From the NCBI GenBank assembly GCA_021325615.1, contig JAJPGU010000032.1:1-64000 (forward strand): DNA of 64,000 nt. Reading direction: 5' to 3'. This document shows positions 4,686 through 50,987 of this stretch, one piece after another; the first letter of the stretch is position 1; each line of letters opens with the position of its first letter. A program made the position numbers and the translations under genes. This DNA comes from Nitrososphaerota archaeon. Its GTDB lineage: Archaea > Thermoproteota > Nitrososphaeria > Nitrososphaerales > Nitrosopumilaceae. Under the pieces are notes generated by a model. The model was not told the DNA's origin. It ran no database searches and was given only the letters and a program-made list of their open reading frames with translations.

Positions 4686-6227
4686 TTGTTCCTTAAGGCA
4701 GATATTCTAGGCATTGAATCGGGGGGAAAACCCATCGTATTCCTCAACAAGTCTGATGCTGACGAAATAGGGATAAGGGCATCAGGCAGAATTACCATAA
4801 CCTTCAAGAAAAAACCGGTAACTTCCATAGTCAATACCACGACATCAGTCAAGCGTGGAATCATAGGGGTAAACGAGGAAGTAAGACAGACCCTGGGCAT
4901 AAAGCAGAACTCCCTAGTGGATGTCGATATTGCGCCATTTCCAAAATCCCTGCAATACATACACAACAAATTGACCGGTAGAAGGCTTGGGTTTGACGAG
5001 ATTTCCGAGATTGTGAGGGACGTCGTACAGGGAAACTTGAATGAGAATGAAATCTCGGCTTTTGTTACCGCACTCAGCATGCAAGGGCTTGACCTTGATG
5101 AGGCTACGGGGCTTGCCCTATCAATGGTTGATACCGGAAAACAGCTCAACCTAAGGAAGAAGATGATAGTCGACAAACACAGTATTGGGGGAGTACCGGG
5201 CGACAAAACCACGCTTTTAGTTGTTCCCATCATAGCATCACTAGGCCTTACGATCCCAAAAGTTTCATCTAGAGCGATTACTTCAGCCGGTGGAACAGCA
5301 GACAGGGCGGAAGCCCTGATGCCCGTAGATCTCAAAATATCAGAGATGGAACGCGTCGTCCGAAGGAGCAACGGATGCATAATCTGGGGAGGCTCACTTG
5401 AGCTCGCACCGGCAGACGACATTTTTGTTAGGAGTGAATATTCCCTCTACATAGACCCCTTATTACTGCCCTCCATCATGAGCAAAAAGAAGGCAGTCAA
5501 CACTAAGCATCTTGTCATCGACATTCCAACTGGCAGGGGTGCCAAAATGCAGACGGTTGGAGAGTCGGACTTTCTGGCCAAGGAACTTATCGAAGTAGGA
5601 AGAAGGCTTGGGATTCACACCCAGTGCGTGCTAACAAATGGTGACAAGCCCATAGGATATGCAATCGGACCGTCGCTCGAGGCTAGGGAGGCATTGTCAG
5701 TGCTCATGAACCGCGCAGTTGTGCCTGATTTGACGGACAAGGTCTGCCACATTGCAGGTAGCATACTTGAGATGGCTGGGAGGAGGAATGGTTACCAACT
5801 AGCAAGAGAGGCCCTCCGCTCTGGAAGGGCCGAGGCAAAGATGCGAGAAATAATAGGATTGCAGGGAGGCAACACGAAGATAAGAATCGATGACTTTGCA
5901 ATAGGCCAAGAACGGGAGAAGATCATGGCTGGAAAGACAGGACATGTCTTATGGATGGACAATGTTGCGTTGATTGAGCTTGCACGGGCTGCAGGGGCTC
6001 CCAAAGACAAGGGTGCAGGGATATTCTTCAACAAGAAGGTTGGCGACAAGGTAAGATCAGGTGATGTCATATACACCGTATTTTCGGAAAAGGCTCGCAA
6101 GTTGTCAAGGGCCCTAGAGATTGTCAAGGATTCAGCGCCCATTGGGATTGGCGAATATCATGAGATGTTCATTCACAAGGTAAAAGAACCTTCACCGGTG
6201 AAGAGATCCTTCGTGATGGAAAGGTAG
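4686..6227 (+). CDS. deoA: AMP phosphorylase (archaeal DeoA family)
   Basis: 513 aa. An N-terminal domain of about 85 residues, characteristic of the archaeal enzyme, precedes the nucleoside phosphorylase core. In the core, DKHSIGGVPGDKTT (near 158) binds phosphate and SSRAITSAGGTADRAEAL follows. It splits AMP (also CMP/UMP) with phosphate into the base and ribose 1,5-bisphosphate. It is the first gene of the AMP pathway operon, 7 nt before the isomerase. The start is TTG at 4686, with TATA-like TTATCTAATATA about 30 nt upstream. Confidence 0.93.
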   Translation: MFLKADILGIESGGKPIVFLNKSDADEIGIRASGRITITFKKKPVTSIVNTTTSVKRGIIGVNEEVRQTLGIKQNSLVDVDIAPFPKSLQYIHNKLTGRRLGFDEISEIVRDVVQGNLNENEISAFVTALSMQGLDLDEATGLALSMVDTGKQLNLRKKMIVDKHSIGGVPGDKTTLLVVPIIASLGLTIPKVSSRAITSAGGTADRAEALMPVDLKISEMERVVRRSNGCIIWGGSLELAPADDIFVRSEYSLYIDPLLLPSIMSKKKAVNTKHLVIDIPTGRGAKMQTVGESDFLAKELIEVGRRLGIHTQCVLTNGDKPIGYAIGPSLEAREALSVLMNRAVVPDLTDKVCHIAGSILEMAGRRNGYQLAREALRSGRAEAKMREIIGLQGGNTKIRIDDFAIGQEREKIMAGKTGHVLWMDNVALIELARAAGAPKDKGAGIFFNKKVGDKVRSGDVIYTVFSEKARKLSRALEIVKDSAPIGIGEYHEMFIHKVKEPSPVKRSFVMER

Positions 6228-6234
6228 TTTTTGA

Positions 6235-7056
6235 TTGAAGACAATAGTGCAGATAACAGAGGATATAGAGAATTTTAAGGTTCAGGGGGCAAACCAGATC
6301 GCCCTTTACGGATTATCGTTCCTAAGGAAGGTAGCAGTCAGAGAGGGATTTGGTCCCAGGTTCTCCGCCGCGACCAAACGCCTTGAGAAGACAAGATCCA
6401 CGGCAGTTGTCCTTCATAACTGCCTTGAGATCATCAAATCGTCCCCAAAAATTTCAACTATAGATTCGCTCATTGATACGCTAACGACTGCAGGTAAAAG
6501 GGAGTCGATATATTCGGATAAAATAATCAAGCCAGGTTCAAAAATCATGACATATTGTCATTCTGGGGAGGCAATGTCTTTTATCAAACATGCACGGACT
6601 GCCCATAAGAATAAGATCTCCGTGATTGCATGCAAGACAGAGCCCCTTGAACAGGGAGTCACTACCGCAAAAGAGTTGTCTGCAGTAGGCATACCCGTAA
6701 CCCTGATTGATGACAACGCAGCGGGGTTTTTCATAAACGAGGTGGACATGGTCATAGTTGGCGCAGATGCCCTCAGAAGGGAGGGAGTAGTAAACAAGAT
6801 AGGAACCTCGCTTCTTGCGCAGGCAGCGGCCGGAGCATCAACACCGCTATATGTTGTAGCAAATTCGCTCAAAATCGACCACAGAAGGTCGTTTAGAATA
6901 GAGGAAAGGCCTGCAACCGAGGTGCTGCCAAAGAAAGGACTGAGGAAGATAAAGGTACGAAACCCCGCCTTTGATATCACCCCATGGCAATTTGTAACGA
7001 TGCTTGTAAATGAAAATGGTATTTTTACAGGAAAACAATTTGTGATCTTATTATGA
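6235..7056 (+). CDS. Ribose 1,5-bisphosphate isomerase
   Basis: 273 aa, eIF2B-like fold, from a TTG start. Signature segments are TYCHSGE with the catalytic-type C108, a TEPLEQGVTTAKEL sugar-binding stretch, GIPVTLIDDNAA, VGADAL with D178, and NKIGTSLLA. C108 and D178 match the Cys/Asp pair described for the Thermococcus enzyme. It converts ribose 1,5-bisphosphate into ribulose 1,5-bisphosphate for the RuBisCO encoded next. The 3' end overlaps the RuBisCO start by 4 nt (ATGA), indicating translational coupling. Confidence 0.92.
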   Translation: MKTIVQITEDIENFKVQGANQIALYGLSFLRKVAVREGFGPRFSAATKRLEKTRSTAVVLHNCLEIIKSSPKISTIDSLIDTLTTAGKRESIYSDKIIKPGSKIMTYCHSGEAMSFIKHARTAHKNKISVIACKTEPLEQGVTTAKELSAVGIPVTLIDDNAAGFFINEVDMVIVGADALRREGVVNKIGTSLLAQAAAGASTPLYVVANSLKIDHRRSFRIEERPATEVLPKKGLRKIKVRNPAFDITPWQFVTMLVNENGIFTGKQFVILL

Positions 7057-8342
7057 AAACAGACTGGTATCGCGATTTTGTGGATTTGAAATACAGACCA
7101 AGCAGCACAGATCTTGTCTGCCTCTTCAGGTTTGAACCTTCCAATGTGTCGCGCACCGAGGCTGCAGGCAGGATAGCCTCCGAGAGCTCAGCAGGCACTT
7201 GGACGACCCTTTCCAAACTTCCGCGTAAGATTGAGGGCGTAATGGCAAGATCGTTTGAAATCATGGGAAACCATGTGAAGGTCGCGTACCCTCTAGAAAT
7301 ATGGGAGCCGGGGAATGTTCCCCAGTTGCTCAGCGGCATTGCTGGCAACATTTTTGGCATGAAGGCTCTCGAAAATCTGAGGCTTGTGGATGTATCGCTT
7401 CCTGCTAGATATACCAGCCACTTCAGGGGTCCGGAATTTGGCATAGAGGGACTACGAAGAATCCTGAAGGTGAGAAGAAGGCCGATAACAGGAGCGGTGG
7501 CAAAACCCAAGATAGGCTGGAGTGCCGAGGAGCACGCCAGAATTGCCTATGAGACATGGGTGGGAGGATTTGACCTAGTCAAGGACGACGAGAACCTTAC
7601 CTCAGCGTCGTTTAACAGATTCGAAAACCGCGTAAGATTATGCTCCAGAATGCGCGACAGGGCCGAAAAGGAAACGGGTCTGAGAAAGTCCGCCCTCATA
7701 AACATAACGGGTGAAACGAATACAATGGTCGGCCGCGCCAGATTTCTCCATGATCATGGTTTTGAGTATGCCATGATAGACGTTGTTACGGTAGGATTTG
7801 CCGCACTGCAGACCTTGCGCGAAATATGCCATGATTACAAAATGGCAATACATGCCCACAGGGCGATGCATGCCGCTCTAGACAGAAACCCAGAGCATGG
7901 CGTCTCAATGTTAGTGCTTGCCAAGGTTTGTCGCATGATAGGCGTGGATCAGATCCATGTGGGGACCGTCCTAGGAAAACTTGTTGGAAGCCGGAAGGAG
8001 ATCATAGACATTCGGGACGGAATTACTAGAACACGCATTTCTTCTCGTCGCAACGAGATACTGAAACAGAATTGGGGGATGACAAAGGCTACCTTACCCG
8101 TATCCTCTGGAGGGTTACATCCGGGTATTATTCCAGATGTCCTGAAAATAATGGGAAATGATATTGCGTTATTAGTAAGCGGCGGAATACATGGACATCC
8201 CAGTGGAACACGTGCAGGAGCAACGGCTGCGATGCAGGCCATCAATGCAACAATGCAAAACACACCATTAAGAGAATATGCCACAGCCCATAAAGAATTG
8301 AGGGAGGCTCTGGAAAAGTGGGGCAGGCTCAGGCCACAATGA
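7053..8342 (+). CDS. rbcL: RuBisCO large subunit, form III
   Basis: 429 aa. Active-site elements are retained: E44 in ESSAGTWTT, N99 in GNIFGMKAL, K151 in KPKIGWS, the carbamylated-type K177 with D179 and E180 in GGFDLVKDDE, H267 in AIHAHRAMHA, H302, loop-6 K309 in GTVLGKL, then SSGG and SGGIHGHPSGT. So it should be a true carboxylase and not a RuBisCO-like protein. In form III organisms it turns ribulose 1,5-bisphosphate plus CO2 into two 3-phosphoglycerate, completing AMP breakdown. No small subunit and no phosphoribulokinase are present. Confidence 0.94.
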   Translation: MKTDWYRDFVDLKYRPSSTDLVCLFRFEPSNVSRTEAAGRIASESSAGTWTTLSKLPRKIEGVMARSFEIMGNHVKVAYPLEIWEPGNVPQLLSGIAGNIFGMKALENLRLVDVSLPARYTSHFRGPEFGIEGLRRILKVRRRPITGAVAKPKIGWSAEEHARIAYETWVGGFDLVKDDENLTSASFNRFENRVRLCSRMRDRAEKETGLRKSALINITGETNTMVGRARFLHDHGFEYAMIDVVTVGFAALQTLREICHDYKMAIHAHRAMHAALDRNPEHGVSMLVLAKVCRMIGVDQIHVGTVLGKLVGSRKEIIDIRDGITRTRISSRRNEILKQNWGMTKATLPVSSGGLHPGIIPDVLKIMGNDIALLVSGGIHGHPSGTRAGATAAMQAINATMQNTPLREYATAHKELREALEKWGRLRPQ

Positions 8343-45391: not shown

Positions 45392-46600
45392 GTGCTGATT
45401 ATTGCGACGTCCATTTCTGGGGCAAGCAATATCGCGCTGGCTTTCCTTCCCATCTATTTCACCTCGCTTGGCGGAACCGTCCTGCAGTACGGCGTAGTAA
45501 TGACATTTACCACGTTGGTTGCCATGCCTGCAACGGTTGTGGGAGGTACCATGACTGGGAGATACGATCTCAAAAGGATTGCCGTACTTACCTCATGGAT
45601 TGGGCCTGCCATACTTGCGGGCTATTACCTCTCGAACAGCTGGTCCGTGCTCACAATCCCATTACTCGCCGGTGGCTTGGGCTCCCTCGGCTCCATTGCG
45701 TGGAGACAGCTTGTTGCAGATGCGACTACAAACAGGAGTAGGACTGCTCAGCTCTCGGTTTACCAGACCCTCACCAGCATCCCTTCTATGCTTGCTCCTC
45801 TTGCCGGAGGGTTTCTTGTTCATGCATTTGGGATCATAGACGGGTTCAGGGACGGAATCCTAATTTCACTGGCACTATCGCCAATTTCCACGGTAATTTT
45901 AATCAGGCTGCTGCGTGAGAATGCTTCTGAACCTTTCCAGGAAGGCGTTGTACCAGACCAGCCTCATCCCAGCCATCGAATGTTCCGACAATTAAGGGAA
46001 TTTGGTTCTAACATCACGTCTCTCCCAAGGACCCTCCTGCCGCTACTTCTGGCCTATGTCTTGGTTTCCCTTGCAAATTCCACTACAAACCCCTACATGA
46101 TATTTTATGCCACAGCCATAGCGAAGCTTGACACATTCCAGTGGGGGATTATACTTAGCCTGCAGATGGTACTTGCAAACCTCATCAGGATCCCCCTTGG
46201 GGTTGTTTCAGACAGATTGGACAAACGGAAGGTGCTCCTTTTCTCTCTTGTCACAACGGCACCCCTTTCAACATTACTAGTCTTTGAGAGGTCCTTTCTT
46301 GCAATACTCGGAGTATTGCTTGCAATGGTTGCCACCGGAATTAATTACACTCCTACCCATGAGGCATTACAGATCGAGCTTACTCCAAGATCGAAGAGGC
46401 CGGCATTGTTTGCTGTTTATGACGTGCTGCGGGGCGCCTCCGCCTCCGCAGGAACTGCCATCGGGGCTTTTCTTTTCACATCAGGCTATGCACTCCCCTT
46501 TTTTGGATATACGGCGCTAGAAGCCTGCGCCTGCGCGATAATTGGCTTCCACTTCTTTCTAAAGCCTGGAAGAAATTCGCTGAGGATCCCCTCCCGATAG
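45392..46600 (+). CDS. Major facilitator superfamily transporter
   Basis: 402 aa from GTG. Twelve hydrophobic segments; the loop-2/3 motif appears as GGTMTGRYDLKRIA and the second-half equivalent as GVVSDRLDKRKVLL. Proton-linked efflux or uptake with unknown substrate. It is convergent with the peptide:N-glycanase-like gene (9-nt gap). Confidence 0.9.
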   Translation: MLIIATSISGASNIALAFLPIYFTSLGGTVLQYGVVMTFTTLVAMPATVVGGTMTGRYDLKRIAVLTSWIGPAILAGYYLSNSWSVLTIPLLAGGLGSLGSIAWRQLVADATTNRSRTAQLSVYQTLTSIPSMLAPLAGGFLVHAFGIIDGFRDGILISLALSPISTVILIRLLRENASEPFQEGVVPDQPHPSHRMFRQLREFGSNITSLPRTLLPLLLAYVLVSLANSTTNPYMIFYATAIAKLDTFQWGIILSLQMVLANLIRIPLGVVSDRLDKRKVLLFSLVTTAPLSTLLVFERSFLAILGVLLAMVATGINYTPTHEALQIELTPRSKRPALFAVYDVLRGASASAGTAIGAFLFTSGYALPFFGYTALEACACAIIGFHFFLKPGRNSLRIPSR

Positions 46601-46609
46601 TTCCCTCCG

Positions 46610-47371
46610 TCAGGTTCCATACATCGATGGGATCTTCGTGTATAGATATCCAAGGTCGGAAATTGACGCCATGTCAAGGTTTCCCACCCTTCCCAATGCC
46701 CTCCTCCTTGAAAGGACGGCCTGCCACTGTTCAGTATACCTTTCGGTCACGTCCTCAATATTTTCGCTTGAGAAGCCCAAGATGTAGACATATTGCTTTT
46801 TCCAGTTGCGCTCATAGTAGTGCGGGTTGTCAAGAGAGTGTGGATACTGGAAGGTGGGATCCACGTGTACCCATCTTCCTCCAAGATGCGCCTCGTTCCA
46901 GCAATGGTCGAGATAGTCGTAGGCGATACGAGATTCGATTGAAAGTGAGTTCAACATGGCTCCAAAAAGTATGGACCACTCCCCGCACCTGCCGTATCTG
47001 GTCTCTGCAATTTTAAGAACGTCGCTGTACCTCGGGATTACCACTTCTGCGCCACACCTTCCACAGGTGTGAACCTCTGTCTTTCTTACCTGCCAGGACT
47101 TGCCCGTTATGACGCTTGCCTGCATAAAGCATGGGTTGCTTTTCATACTGCACCTTTCGCAGGCAACCTGGTTTGGAGTCCATGTCATGAATCCCTTGTA
47201 CCACTTCAGGAGGTGTGGTATGACTTCACCCTCCAGAACTTCCTTTGGCACGAGCCTCCTTACCGTGTCGAGAACCTTCGGGTCCCGGTATTGGCTTGTT
47301 ATGGTCTTGTAGAAGAGGAAAGAATTTTTGATTGCCTCAAAGTCTATTTGGTGATTCCCTTCCTGCATCAC
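46610..47371 (-). CDS. Eukaryote-type peptide:N-glycanase (Png1) homologue
   Basis: 253 aa. The transglutaminase-like core matches Png1 along its length: zinc ligands C71-x2-C74 and C103-x2-C106 before the core, YGRCGEW with nucleophile C129, YDYLDHCWNE with H156, and VHVDP with D171, then WKKQYVYILGFSSENIEDVT as in the eukaryotic enzyme. PNGase removes N-glycans from misfolded glycoproteins in eukaryotic cytosol. The eukaryotic PUB and PAW domains are absent. Substrate in an archaeon is unknown; a protease or other amidase role is possible. Confidence 0.88.
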   Translation of the reverse strand: MMQEGNHQIDFEAIKNSFLFYKTITSQYRDPKVLDTVRRLVPKEVLEGEVIPHLLKWYKGFMTWTPNQVACERCSMKSNPCFMQASVITGKSWQVRKTEVHTCGRCGAEVVIPRYSDVLKIAETRYGRCGEWSILFGAMLNSLSIESRIAYDYLDHCWNEAHLGGRWVHVDPTFQYPHSLDNPHYYERNWKKQYVYILGFSSENIEDVTERYTEQWQAVLSRRRALGRVGNLDMASISDLGYLYTKIPSMYGT

Positions 47372-48981: not shown

Positions 48982-50169
48982 ATGGATGAGTTCGAGGAGT
49001 TTGCATTCGCCCTTTTGGACCAGATATCAGTAGAATTAGGCGAGGAGAAGACAATAACAGAGGCACGGGCCAAGGCATCGGAGGCTTTCGGAACAAGAAT
49101 AACTTTTGACGACATCAGAACCATATCAGAGCAGGTCGCGCCAGAGAGCGCAAGGAATGCATCCAAGTTTACCGGCATAGCAGTGCCTCCAAGTAAGATG
49201 GAGTTTCCAGACCTTGCAGATTTTAAGCATCTAAAGGGTCGCAAGGTTTTTCCCGCAAAGGGTTCCGAGGGCTTTGTTGACGAGCTCTTCAGGGCATTAG
49301 CCCTGGAGGATGCAGGCAAGATAGCACAGCTTGCAAAATCCGACATTGGCAGGTTTCTGGTCTATTCGACCTATGCCAAGGGCTACATCTCGCAGATCTC
49401 CACCACATATGGCGATTTTTACGAATCCACGATATACCTAAACAGGTTTGTCCTTTCCAGCTACCCCCAGATAATCCTGCACAAGTTCGGCCCCCCTTAC
49501 GAATCCAACTTTGGGCGCGTGAATTCTGGGTATCGAGGAGCTCTGAAAATGACAATCCTCGAGGAACAGGTTCATTCGATTCAAAAAAACCTCTATAGCA
49601 TAAACAAGGCTGCCGTCACCCAGGTTAACGAAATAAACGAGGAACTTGCAAAGATAATCCTAGACCTGGACGTCACCAAGATAAATGGTCTTTACGAGTA
49701 TCTCCAGATTCCTGCTGTGCCTGAGGATTACCCCGCCGCGCAGCGTGCAAACCTCTTTTTCACACTAAACCCTGACAACTTCATCGTAAGAGTCCTCGGC
49801 CCAGATGTCATGACGTTTACCAAAGTTACCGTGGATCCAAAGATACTGGATTTCGTTCCGGAGTTACTTGACATCTACCAGCGCTGGTTAAAACCAATCC
49901 AGTCCCACCACGCGGCCTTTACAACAATGGAGGGCATGGCAGAATTTGCGGTAAGGCACATGCTTAGGGATGATGCAGACTTCCACAACTATCTTGTTAC
50001 CTTTGCCAATACGGACATTTCCACCTACCAGATAAGAAAGAGCATTGGAATGGATTTCACGGAGCATATCGTTTCAAAAATCGGCGGCAAGGCATATGGA
50101 ACTATGATCGAAAATCCCCCAACTACCCGAGAGCTCAAAAATCCCGAGATTTACCTGAAAAGAATATGA
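48982..50169 (+). CDS. Hypothetical protein of about 400 residues
   Basis: 395 aa, acidic, no membrane segments. LEEQVHSIQKNLYSINKAA (near 193) and FTTMEGMAEFAVRHML (near 313) are the most distinctive parts; an E-x-x-H followed by a distant Glu could be a metallopeptidase-like site, but I would not assert it. The SirB1-like gene overlaps its stop by 4 nt (ATGA), so the two are translationally coupled and perhaps functionally linked. Confidence 0.8.
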   Translation: MDEFEEFAFALLDQISVELGEEKTITEARAKASEAFGTRITFDDIRTISEQVAPESARNASKFTGIAVPPSKMEFPDLADFKHLKGRKVFPAKGSEGFVDELFRALALEDAGKIAQLAKSDIGRFLVYSTYAKGYISQISTTYGDFYESTIYLNRFVLSSYPQIILHKFGPPYESNFGRVNSGYRGALKMTILEEQVHSIQKNLYSINKAAVTQVNEINEELAKIILDLDVTKINGLYEYLQIPAVPEDYPAAQRANLFFTLNPDNFIVRVLGPDVMTFTKVTVDPKILDFVPELLDIYQRWLKPIQSHHAAFTTMEGMAEFAVRHMLRDDADFHNYLVTFANTDISTYQIRKSIGMDFTEHIVSKIGGKAYGTMIENPPTTRELKNPEIYLKRI

Positions 50170-50987
50170 GCGATTTTGATCCGTTTGTAGAAGAATGGGT
50201 CGCGTATGCAAGGAACCCCCGATACACTCTTGTTGAAAAATGCCTGAAACTTTCCCAGACCTTGGAAAATCCCGACCTTGTCCTTGACAAATATGTCGAG
50301 AAGATGAACTCCTTCGGGCGGGACTTGCGAGCCTCGGTGGCTGATGTAAAAAACCCAACCTACCGGATTTCCATGCTTAACGAATACATGTTTGAGACCC
50401 TCGGTTTTGAGGGAAATCGGGACGATTACTACAACCCGCAAAACAATTTCTTGGACAAGGTAATCGAGTCCAAGAAAGGCATTCCCATCACCCTTTCCAT
50501 AATTTACATCCAGCTAGGGGGCTTCCTCGGCCTTGACCTCCGGCCAGTTGGATTTCCAGGCCACTTCCTTGTAAAACTGTCAGAGGAAATGATACTTGAC
50601 CCGTTCAATGGTGGGAGGTTGGTGGGGGTAGAGGACCTGGATGAAATGCTTAGCGGTATCTATGGGCCGGGGTTTCCCTTCAGGCCGGAATTTCTCAACG
50701 AGATAGGGCCAGAAATGATCCTCATCAGGCTTGCAAGGAATTTGAAGAACTCATACATGCAATCTTTCAATTACAAAAAAGCCCTCCACTGCATAAACAT
50801 GGTGCTAGGCCTTGTGCCTGACGAGCCTGACGAAGTCAGGGATACAGGCATCATAATGTCAAGGATGCTTCAAAACGACCGGGCCCTGCGGGCACTGGAG
50901 AGGTATCTCGAACTTGCCCCGGATGCAGATGATGTAGATAATGTTCTTGAGATGATAAGAGGCATAAAGGAAAAGTCTAGTCGATGA
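50166..50987 (+). CDS. SirB1-family protein (transglutaminase-like plus TPR)
   Basis: 273 aa. The core NFLDKVIESKKGIPITLSIIY, LDLRPVGFPGHFLVK and LDPFNGG are the SirB1 pattern; the usual nucleophile Cys is absent, replaced by the ITLS type. The C-terminus (about 190-265) is TPR-like (KALHCINMVLGLVPDEP, RALRALERYLELAPDA). Bacterial SirB1 function is unclear; may be a non-catalytic transglutaminase-like fold. Coupled to the upstream gene by ATGA. Confidence 0.88.
   Translation: MSDFDPFVEEWVAYARNPRYTLVEKCLKLSQTLENPDLVLDKYVEKMNSFGRDLRASVADVKNPTYRISMLNEYMFETLGFEGNRDDYYNPQNNFLDKVIESKKGIPITLSIIYIQLGGFLGLDLRPVGFPGHFLVKLSEEMILDPFNGGRLVGVEDLDEMLSGIYGPGFPFRPEFLNEIGPEMILIRLARNLKNSYMQSFNYKKALHCINMVLGLVPDEPDEVRDTGIIMSRMLQNDRALRALERYLELAPDADDVDNVLEMIRGIKEKSSR

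Follow-up and report, generated by a model that had tools for sequence, protein, structure and literature searches.

A Png1-type peptide:N-glycanase gene predicted in an ammonia-oxidising archaeon of the Nitrosopumilaceae

The DNA analysed here, hereafter the window, is a stretch of 64,000 nucleotides (contig JAJPGU010000032.1) from an archaeon of the family Nitrosopumilaceae. Its minus strand carries an open reading frame at 46613-47371, followed by a stop codon at 46610-46612, which has 253 codons when read from a GTG; the plus-strand reading of the same region is interrupted by stops. An alternative ATG start lies one codon after the GTG, relatives begin at this same ATG, and ATG 47368 is likelier to be the true start than GTG 47371. 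The features of the locus are as follows:

46610-47371, minus strand: candidate Png1-type peptide:N-glycanase gene, 253 amino acids plus stop codon (GTG 47371, ATG 47368), assigned by sequence, profile and fold matches
47189-47341, minus strand: N-terminal helical part, residues 11-61, common to the archaeal relatives, its end also found in mouse Png1 (LLHWFKEEFFRW), from alignments
47054-47161, minus strand: putative zinc-binding insert, residues 71-106, with two CxxC pairs (C71, C74 and C103, C106), equivalent to the zinc ligands Cys129/132/165/168 of yeast Png1 (roles from PMC9102325)
46985-46987, minus strand: predicted catalytic Cys129 codon (GRCGEWS), aligned with the catalytic Cys of yeast and mouse and invariant in both archaeal alignments
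46904-46906, minus strand: predicted catalytic His156 codon (LDHCWNE), invariant in the 28-row and 32-row archaeal alignments
46859-46861, minus strand: predicted catalytic Asp171 codon (WVHVD), likewise invariant in the 28-row and 32-row alignments
46871-46930, minus strand: segment with R148, W158, E160 and W167, equivalent by alignment to the conserved set R229, W239, E241 and W248 of the Dictyostelium enzyme (residue list from PMC3502110)
47410-48390, minus strand: MscS-type mechanosensitive channel gene, directly upstream with a 38 bp gap, a conserved neighbour in close relatives
45392-46600, plus strand: MFS transporter gene, convergent with a 9 bp gap, also convergent in two loci outside the nearest group (L037, L044)

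The genome to which the window belongs is 1.83 Mb in size and has one copy of the Png1-like gene; it encodes an archaeal AmoA, and is thus that of an ammonia-oxidising archaeon. Among named records, those closest by homology are Thaumarchaeota REEA/Centralia and Nitrosopumilaceae JOPF. Elsewhere in the window, an unrelated transglutaminase-like gene (Transglut_core2, PF13369, with TPR) lies 3 kb off at 50166-50987 on the plus strand and, with the gene at 48982-50169, forms a pair of jointly conserved neighbours in the same group. The translations at 4686-8342 (plus strand) read as a tandem trio resembling AMP phosphorylase, ribose-1,5-bisphosphate isomerase and form III RuBisCO, i.e. an AMP pathway, and numerous universal-stress-protein and CBS-domain genes are dispersed over 968-45289.

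Png1, or NGLY1, is a cytosolic eukaryotic enzyme that removes sugar chains from misfolded glycoproteins and is treated as a component of eukaryotic quality control. A sequence-only reading of the locus had matched the archaeal protein to Png1 over both zinc-binding Cys pairs, the C129-H156-D171 triad, the DHxWxE segment and the strand that follows. These residues were correctly identified: DHCWNE occupies residues 155-160 and YVYILGFSSENIEDVT residues 194-209. Searched against the PDB with phmmer, the protein retrieved mouse Png1 (2f4m, 4.9e-27) and yeast Png1 (1x3w, 9.7e-27; 3esw, 1.8e-26), values around 1e-26, the matches spanning about 175 residues (residues 50-225 of the archaeal protein). 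A profile of 28 archaeal sequences retrieved the Png1 chains at 1.8e-42, 1.7e-38 and 1.8e-38 and no significant non-Png1 chain, the next entry being an unrelated zinc protein at 0.011. At the level of sequence comparison, the similarity is far above chance and PNGase-specific, which bears out the proposal that the likeness goes beyond the general transglutaminase fold.

What the protein shares with Png1/NGLY1 (2f4m, 1x3w, 3esw) is the transglutaminase-type core, about 42% identical, with the Cys-His-Asp triad at the Png1 positions, the conserved R, W, E and W around the predicted catalytic His, the two CxxC pairs at the equivalent place by sequence, a WFK..F..W motif ahead of the zinc insert, and the downstream strand with DVT..Y. 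The four zinc-site cysteines, C129, H156, D171, R148, W158, E160 and W167 are invariant in the 32 (and in the 28) aligned archaeal sequences. The spacing from Cys to His is 27 residues in the archaeal protein, as in mouse and Dictyostelium Png1, while that from His to Asp is 15, as in Dictyostelium but not in mouse and yeast Png1, where it is 17 (PMC3502110). The archaeal protein also differs by a three-residue insertion after the catalytic Asp, and lacks the PUB, PAW and Rad23-binding extensions of Png1/NGLY1; yeast Png1, too, is without PUB and PAW, yet binds Rad23.

Pfam assigns the protein to Transglut_core (PF01841, 1.3e-12) and, more weakly, to Rad4 (5.3e-8), with no other domain. The latter match raises the question of whether the gene encodes an XPC/Rad4-like protein, i.e. 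a catalytically dead DNA-repair scaffold, whose transglutaminase-like domain has the same fold. An AlphaFold2 model based on 32 archaeal sequences (mean pLDDT 92.4, pTM 0.90) was compared with known structures using Foldseek. The top four hits of this predicted model are Png1 entries (3.3e-15 to 3.3e-14); XPC comes second among the folds (2e-7), followed by Rad4 (1e-5 to 4e-4), a bacterial cysteine protease (2.6e-4) and TG2 (4e-3), so that XPC/Rad4 trail Png1 by at least some seven orders of magnitude. Png1 is thus the best structural neighbour of the model, with TM-scores of 0.58-0.70 by query length, and the predicted fold gives no sign of the structural mismatch that would have told against the Png1 assignment. 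XPC/Rad4 proteins bind DNA and are catalytically inactive, whereas here the triad is complete and the 253 residues are too few for the DNA-binding beta-hairpin domains, none of which was found. The Pfam Rad4 family moreover includes yeast Png1 itself (PMC10318531), and no Rad4 chain appears among the PDB matches of the archaeal profile. A Rad4/XPC identity was rejected on the profile search and the Foldseek ranking, and we consider it extremely improbable.

A more serious alternative is that the protein is an amidohydrolase of the Png1 fold that catalyses another reaction on substrates without glycans, be it as a peptidase, a deamidase or a transamidase, in the manner of many bacterial and archaeal transglutaminase-like proteins. 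The triad by itself occurs throughout the superfamily (PF01841), and glycan specificity of the window protein is a prediction from sequence. Archaea of other lineages have short relatives that lack the zinc insert. A different class within the phylum has short proteins of 160-200 amino acids (L081-L087, L117-L127) and membrane-bound ones; both keep the motif order (GKCGEF, DHVWTE, HVDPSEKR, DPEMYERDW in the short proteins) but not the insert, and the short proteins reach up to 44% core identity with mouse Png1 in BLAST. Within the Png1 family, filamentous fungi have catalytically dead yet conserved members, and the plant enzyme has transglutaminase activity as well (PMC9102325). Against this, the zinc insert and R148, W158, E160 and W167 are found in 32 of 32 aligned sequences, and phylogeny sets the window protein apart from archaeal transglutaminases of the short and the membrane-bound kind.

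The tree was computed from 118 columns, the zinc insert being left out, and its rows include only two eukaryotic Png1 sequences, both opisthokont, and no bacterial or Asgard ones. A branch supported at 100/100 unites the Nitrososphaeria type, Png1 and one further sequence, L069, and the short (160-200 aa) and membrane-bound archaeal proteins fall outside this clade, L069 excepted. The window protein therefore groups with eukaryotic Png1 and not with the other archaeal transglutaminases; among the rows covered, the placement that would have told against the Png1 assignment was not seen. The archaeal zinc type is monophyletic (97/95) and, together with L069, sister to Png1 at 94/83, which is not decisive. 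Grouping Png1 with the short archaeal proteins was rejected (p-AU 0.0035). A single clade of zinc-type proteins without L069 is not rejected (p-AU 0.167), so that a single gain of the insert fits, whether or not L069 lost it later. The L069 gene itself (L069:2535-3053, from a Thaumarchaeota MAG) resembles the window type in its N-terminal part and in the indels of its core, with a clean absence of the zinc insert; its contig is short, and misbinning is possible. Weighing the invariant residues and the tree against the points above, we regard a different reaction on the Png1 fold as rather unlikely, and a Png1-type peptide:N-glycanase as the preferred assignment. At the level of the superfamily, archaeal transglutaminase-like proteins have already been linked to Png1 and XPC (Makarova 1999 and Anantharaman 2001, cited in PMC10318531). 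Our literature search, in which subscription journals were mostly not covered, found no description of a zinc-type Png1 in Nitrososphaeria, and an earlier one is possible.

The gene is patchily distributed in these ammonia-oxidising soil archaea. It occurs in 33 of 300 genomes of the class; the carriers belong to the window's genus or to family f3, apart from a single broken copy in a further genus of the window's own family. In the remaining listed genera of that family, an intact copy is absent. Full counts give 11 of 37 genomes in the window's genus and 34 of 70 genomes (10 of 12 genera) in f3, which holds most of the other carriers. A scan of named records yielded 42 loci, all from Nitrososphaeria, including Nitrosocosmicus and Nitrosopolaris; its motifs fit yeast Png1 poorly, and hence the scan does not establish absence from Asgard archaea and bacteria. 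No relatives were found in viral contigs. Broken copies are present in three genomes (G242, G766, G272) and two loci (L070, L072). In G106, a genome of the window's genus scored as negative, the first 41 residues survive as a remnant full of stops some 40 bases past MscS (L147:2504-2623), the very place of the gene in the window; this is loss in place. Between close relatives in the nearest group (pairs with unsaturated dS), dN/dS is 0.055-0.133, and the gene is under purifying selection. Together, the patchy spread, purifying selection, broken copies and remnant indicate a gene that is old in these archaea, selected where present and often lost.

The same patchiness, and the restriction of full zinc-type genes to Nitrososphaeria among the prokaryotes searched, could also be taken to suggest eukaryotic DNA contaminating the assembly or a recent gain from a eukaryote. 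However, the order MscS, Png1-like gene, MFS transporter recurs in several independent relatives, the GC and GC3 of the gene are near those of its neighbours, identities of 37-70% inside the archaeal set reflect deep archaeal divergence, and the archaeal zinc type forms a single group in the tree. Contamination or a misassembled eukaryotic gene is excluded by synteny, composition and the presence of about 40 named archaeal loci, and this origin as a whole retains hardly any probability.

In the nearest group, most loci have MscS ahead of the gene and on its strand, the two being possibly co-transcribed, and the MFS transporter follows convergently. At Nitrosocosmicus-type loci (for example L055:2766-5540), the divergent neighbour is instead an M1-type aminopeptidase gene (PF01433), which would fit peptide turnover; neighbouring genes are weak functional hints. 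Reading a function from the MscS and MFS neighbours was dropped, their conservation being mainly local and without a clear functional link.

We conclude that the gene product is probably a Png1/NGLY1-family peptide:N-glycanase (EC 3.5.1.52), soluble and cytosolic, that acts on the cell's own N-glycoproteins or glycopeptides, an activity suggested by sequence and predicted fold. In the proposed mechanism, Cys129, activated by His156 and Asp171, would attack the side-chain amide of a glycosylated Asn in a cleft shaped by the zinc insert, releasing a glycosylamine and converting Asn to Asp. Bacterial PNGase F would share its reaction with the window protein if this prediction holds, but is unrelated and secreted and uses the acidic catalytic residues Asp100, Glu158 and Glu246 (PMC9102325); no match of PNGase F type was seen for the window protein.

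Archaeal N-glycoproteins are assembled on the outer face of the membrane, and a cytosolic substrate therefore needs explaining. The window protein has no membrane-spanning stretch (top 19-residue hydropathy 0.9) and, on reading its sequence, no evident signal peptide, so substrates must reach the cytosol. The probable substrates would be denatured or fragmented N-glycoproteins (S-layer and other surface proteins) of the organism's own AglB pathway, or glycopeptides derived from them, carrying glycans of chitobiose type and encountered in the cytosol ahead of export or following glycopeptide uptake; their deglycosylation would yield peptide and amino sugars for reuse. AglB/STT3 is encoded in the window genome. 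In the related ammonia oxidiser Nitrososphaera viennensis, the N-glycans are nitrogen-rich with a chitobiose core, whereas Nitrosopumilus piranensis showed none (PMC12153357). This glycan pattern and the gene distribution fit, by analogy, a deglycosylase that serves N-glycoproteins made by the cell itself, and the suggestion of archaeal N-glycoprotein recycling is accordingly plausible. Alg14 (PF08660), a marker of chitobiose synthesis, was not detected in the window genome; chitobiose in the window species thus rests on its relative. The linking sugar in the Ns. viennensis glycan is diacetylated rather than plain GlcNAc (PMC12153357) and might not be accepted by a Png1, and Ns. viennensis may itself lack a Png1-like gene. 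The proposed role is accessory, not essential.

A role closer to that in eukaryotes would be a quality control resembling ERAD, in which misfolded N-glycoproteins are returned to the archaeal cytosol, deglycosylated and then digested by the proteasome. Archaea have proteasomes and Cdc48, and the Png1 fold and the cytosolic location suggested by sequence would suit such a pathway. Set against this are the missing PUB, PAW and Rad23-binding parts (by Pfam, in 253 amino acids), the lack of an adjoining retrotranslocation gene, and repeated loss, which marks the gene as dispensable; we judge this version very unlikely. For the same absence of extensions, the patchy and repeatedly lost gene, and a direction of descent or transfer left undecided, the claim that the gene bears on the origin of ERAD found no support.

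The most far-reaching reading is that these ammonia-oxidising archaea have a true cytosolic pathway of N-glycoprotein deglycosylation, whose enzyme is sister to eukaryotic Png1 by descent and hence older than the endoplasmic reticulum, ERAD having taken over an enzyme with which archaea already recycled nitrogen-rich N-glycans. We consider this possible but doubtful. With two opisthokont sequences only, the tree does not separate inheritance from transfer in either direction, and an ancient transfer between archaea and eukaryotes, whichever way it went, is compatible with the peptide:N-glycanase assignment. A complete zinc-type Png1 in an archaeal group able to make chitobiose-type N-glycans offers a small and soluble enzyme for immediate assay, one that could serve as a new tool for N-glycan release. 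It provides a testable link between the turnover of N-glycoproteins in archaea and in eukaryotes, and opens to test whether archaea were the source or the recipients of eukaryotic deglycosylation.
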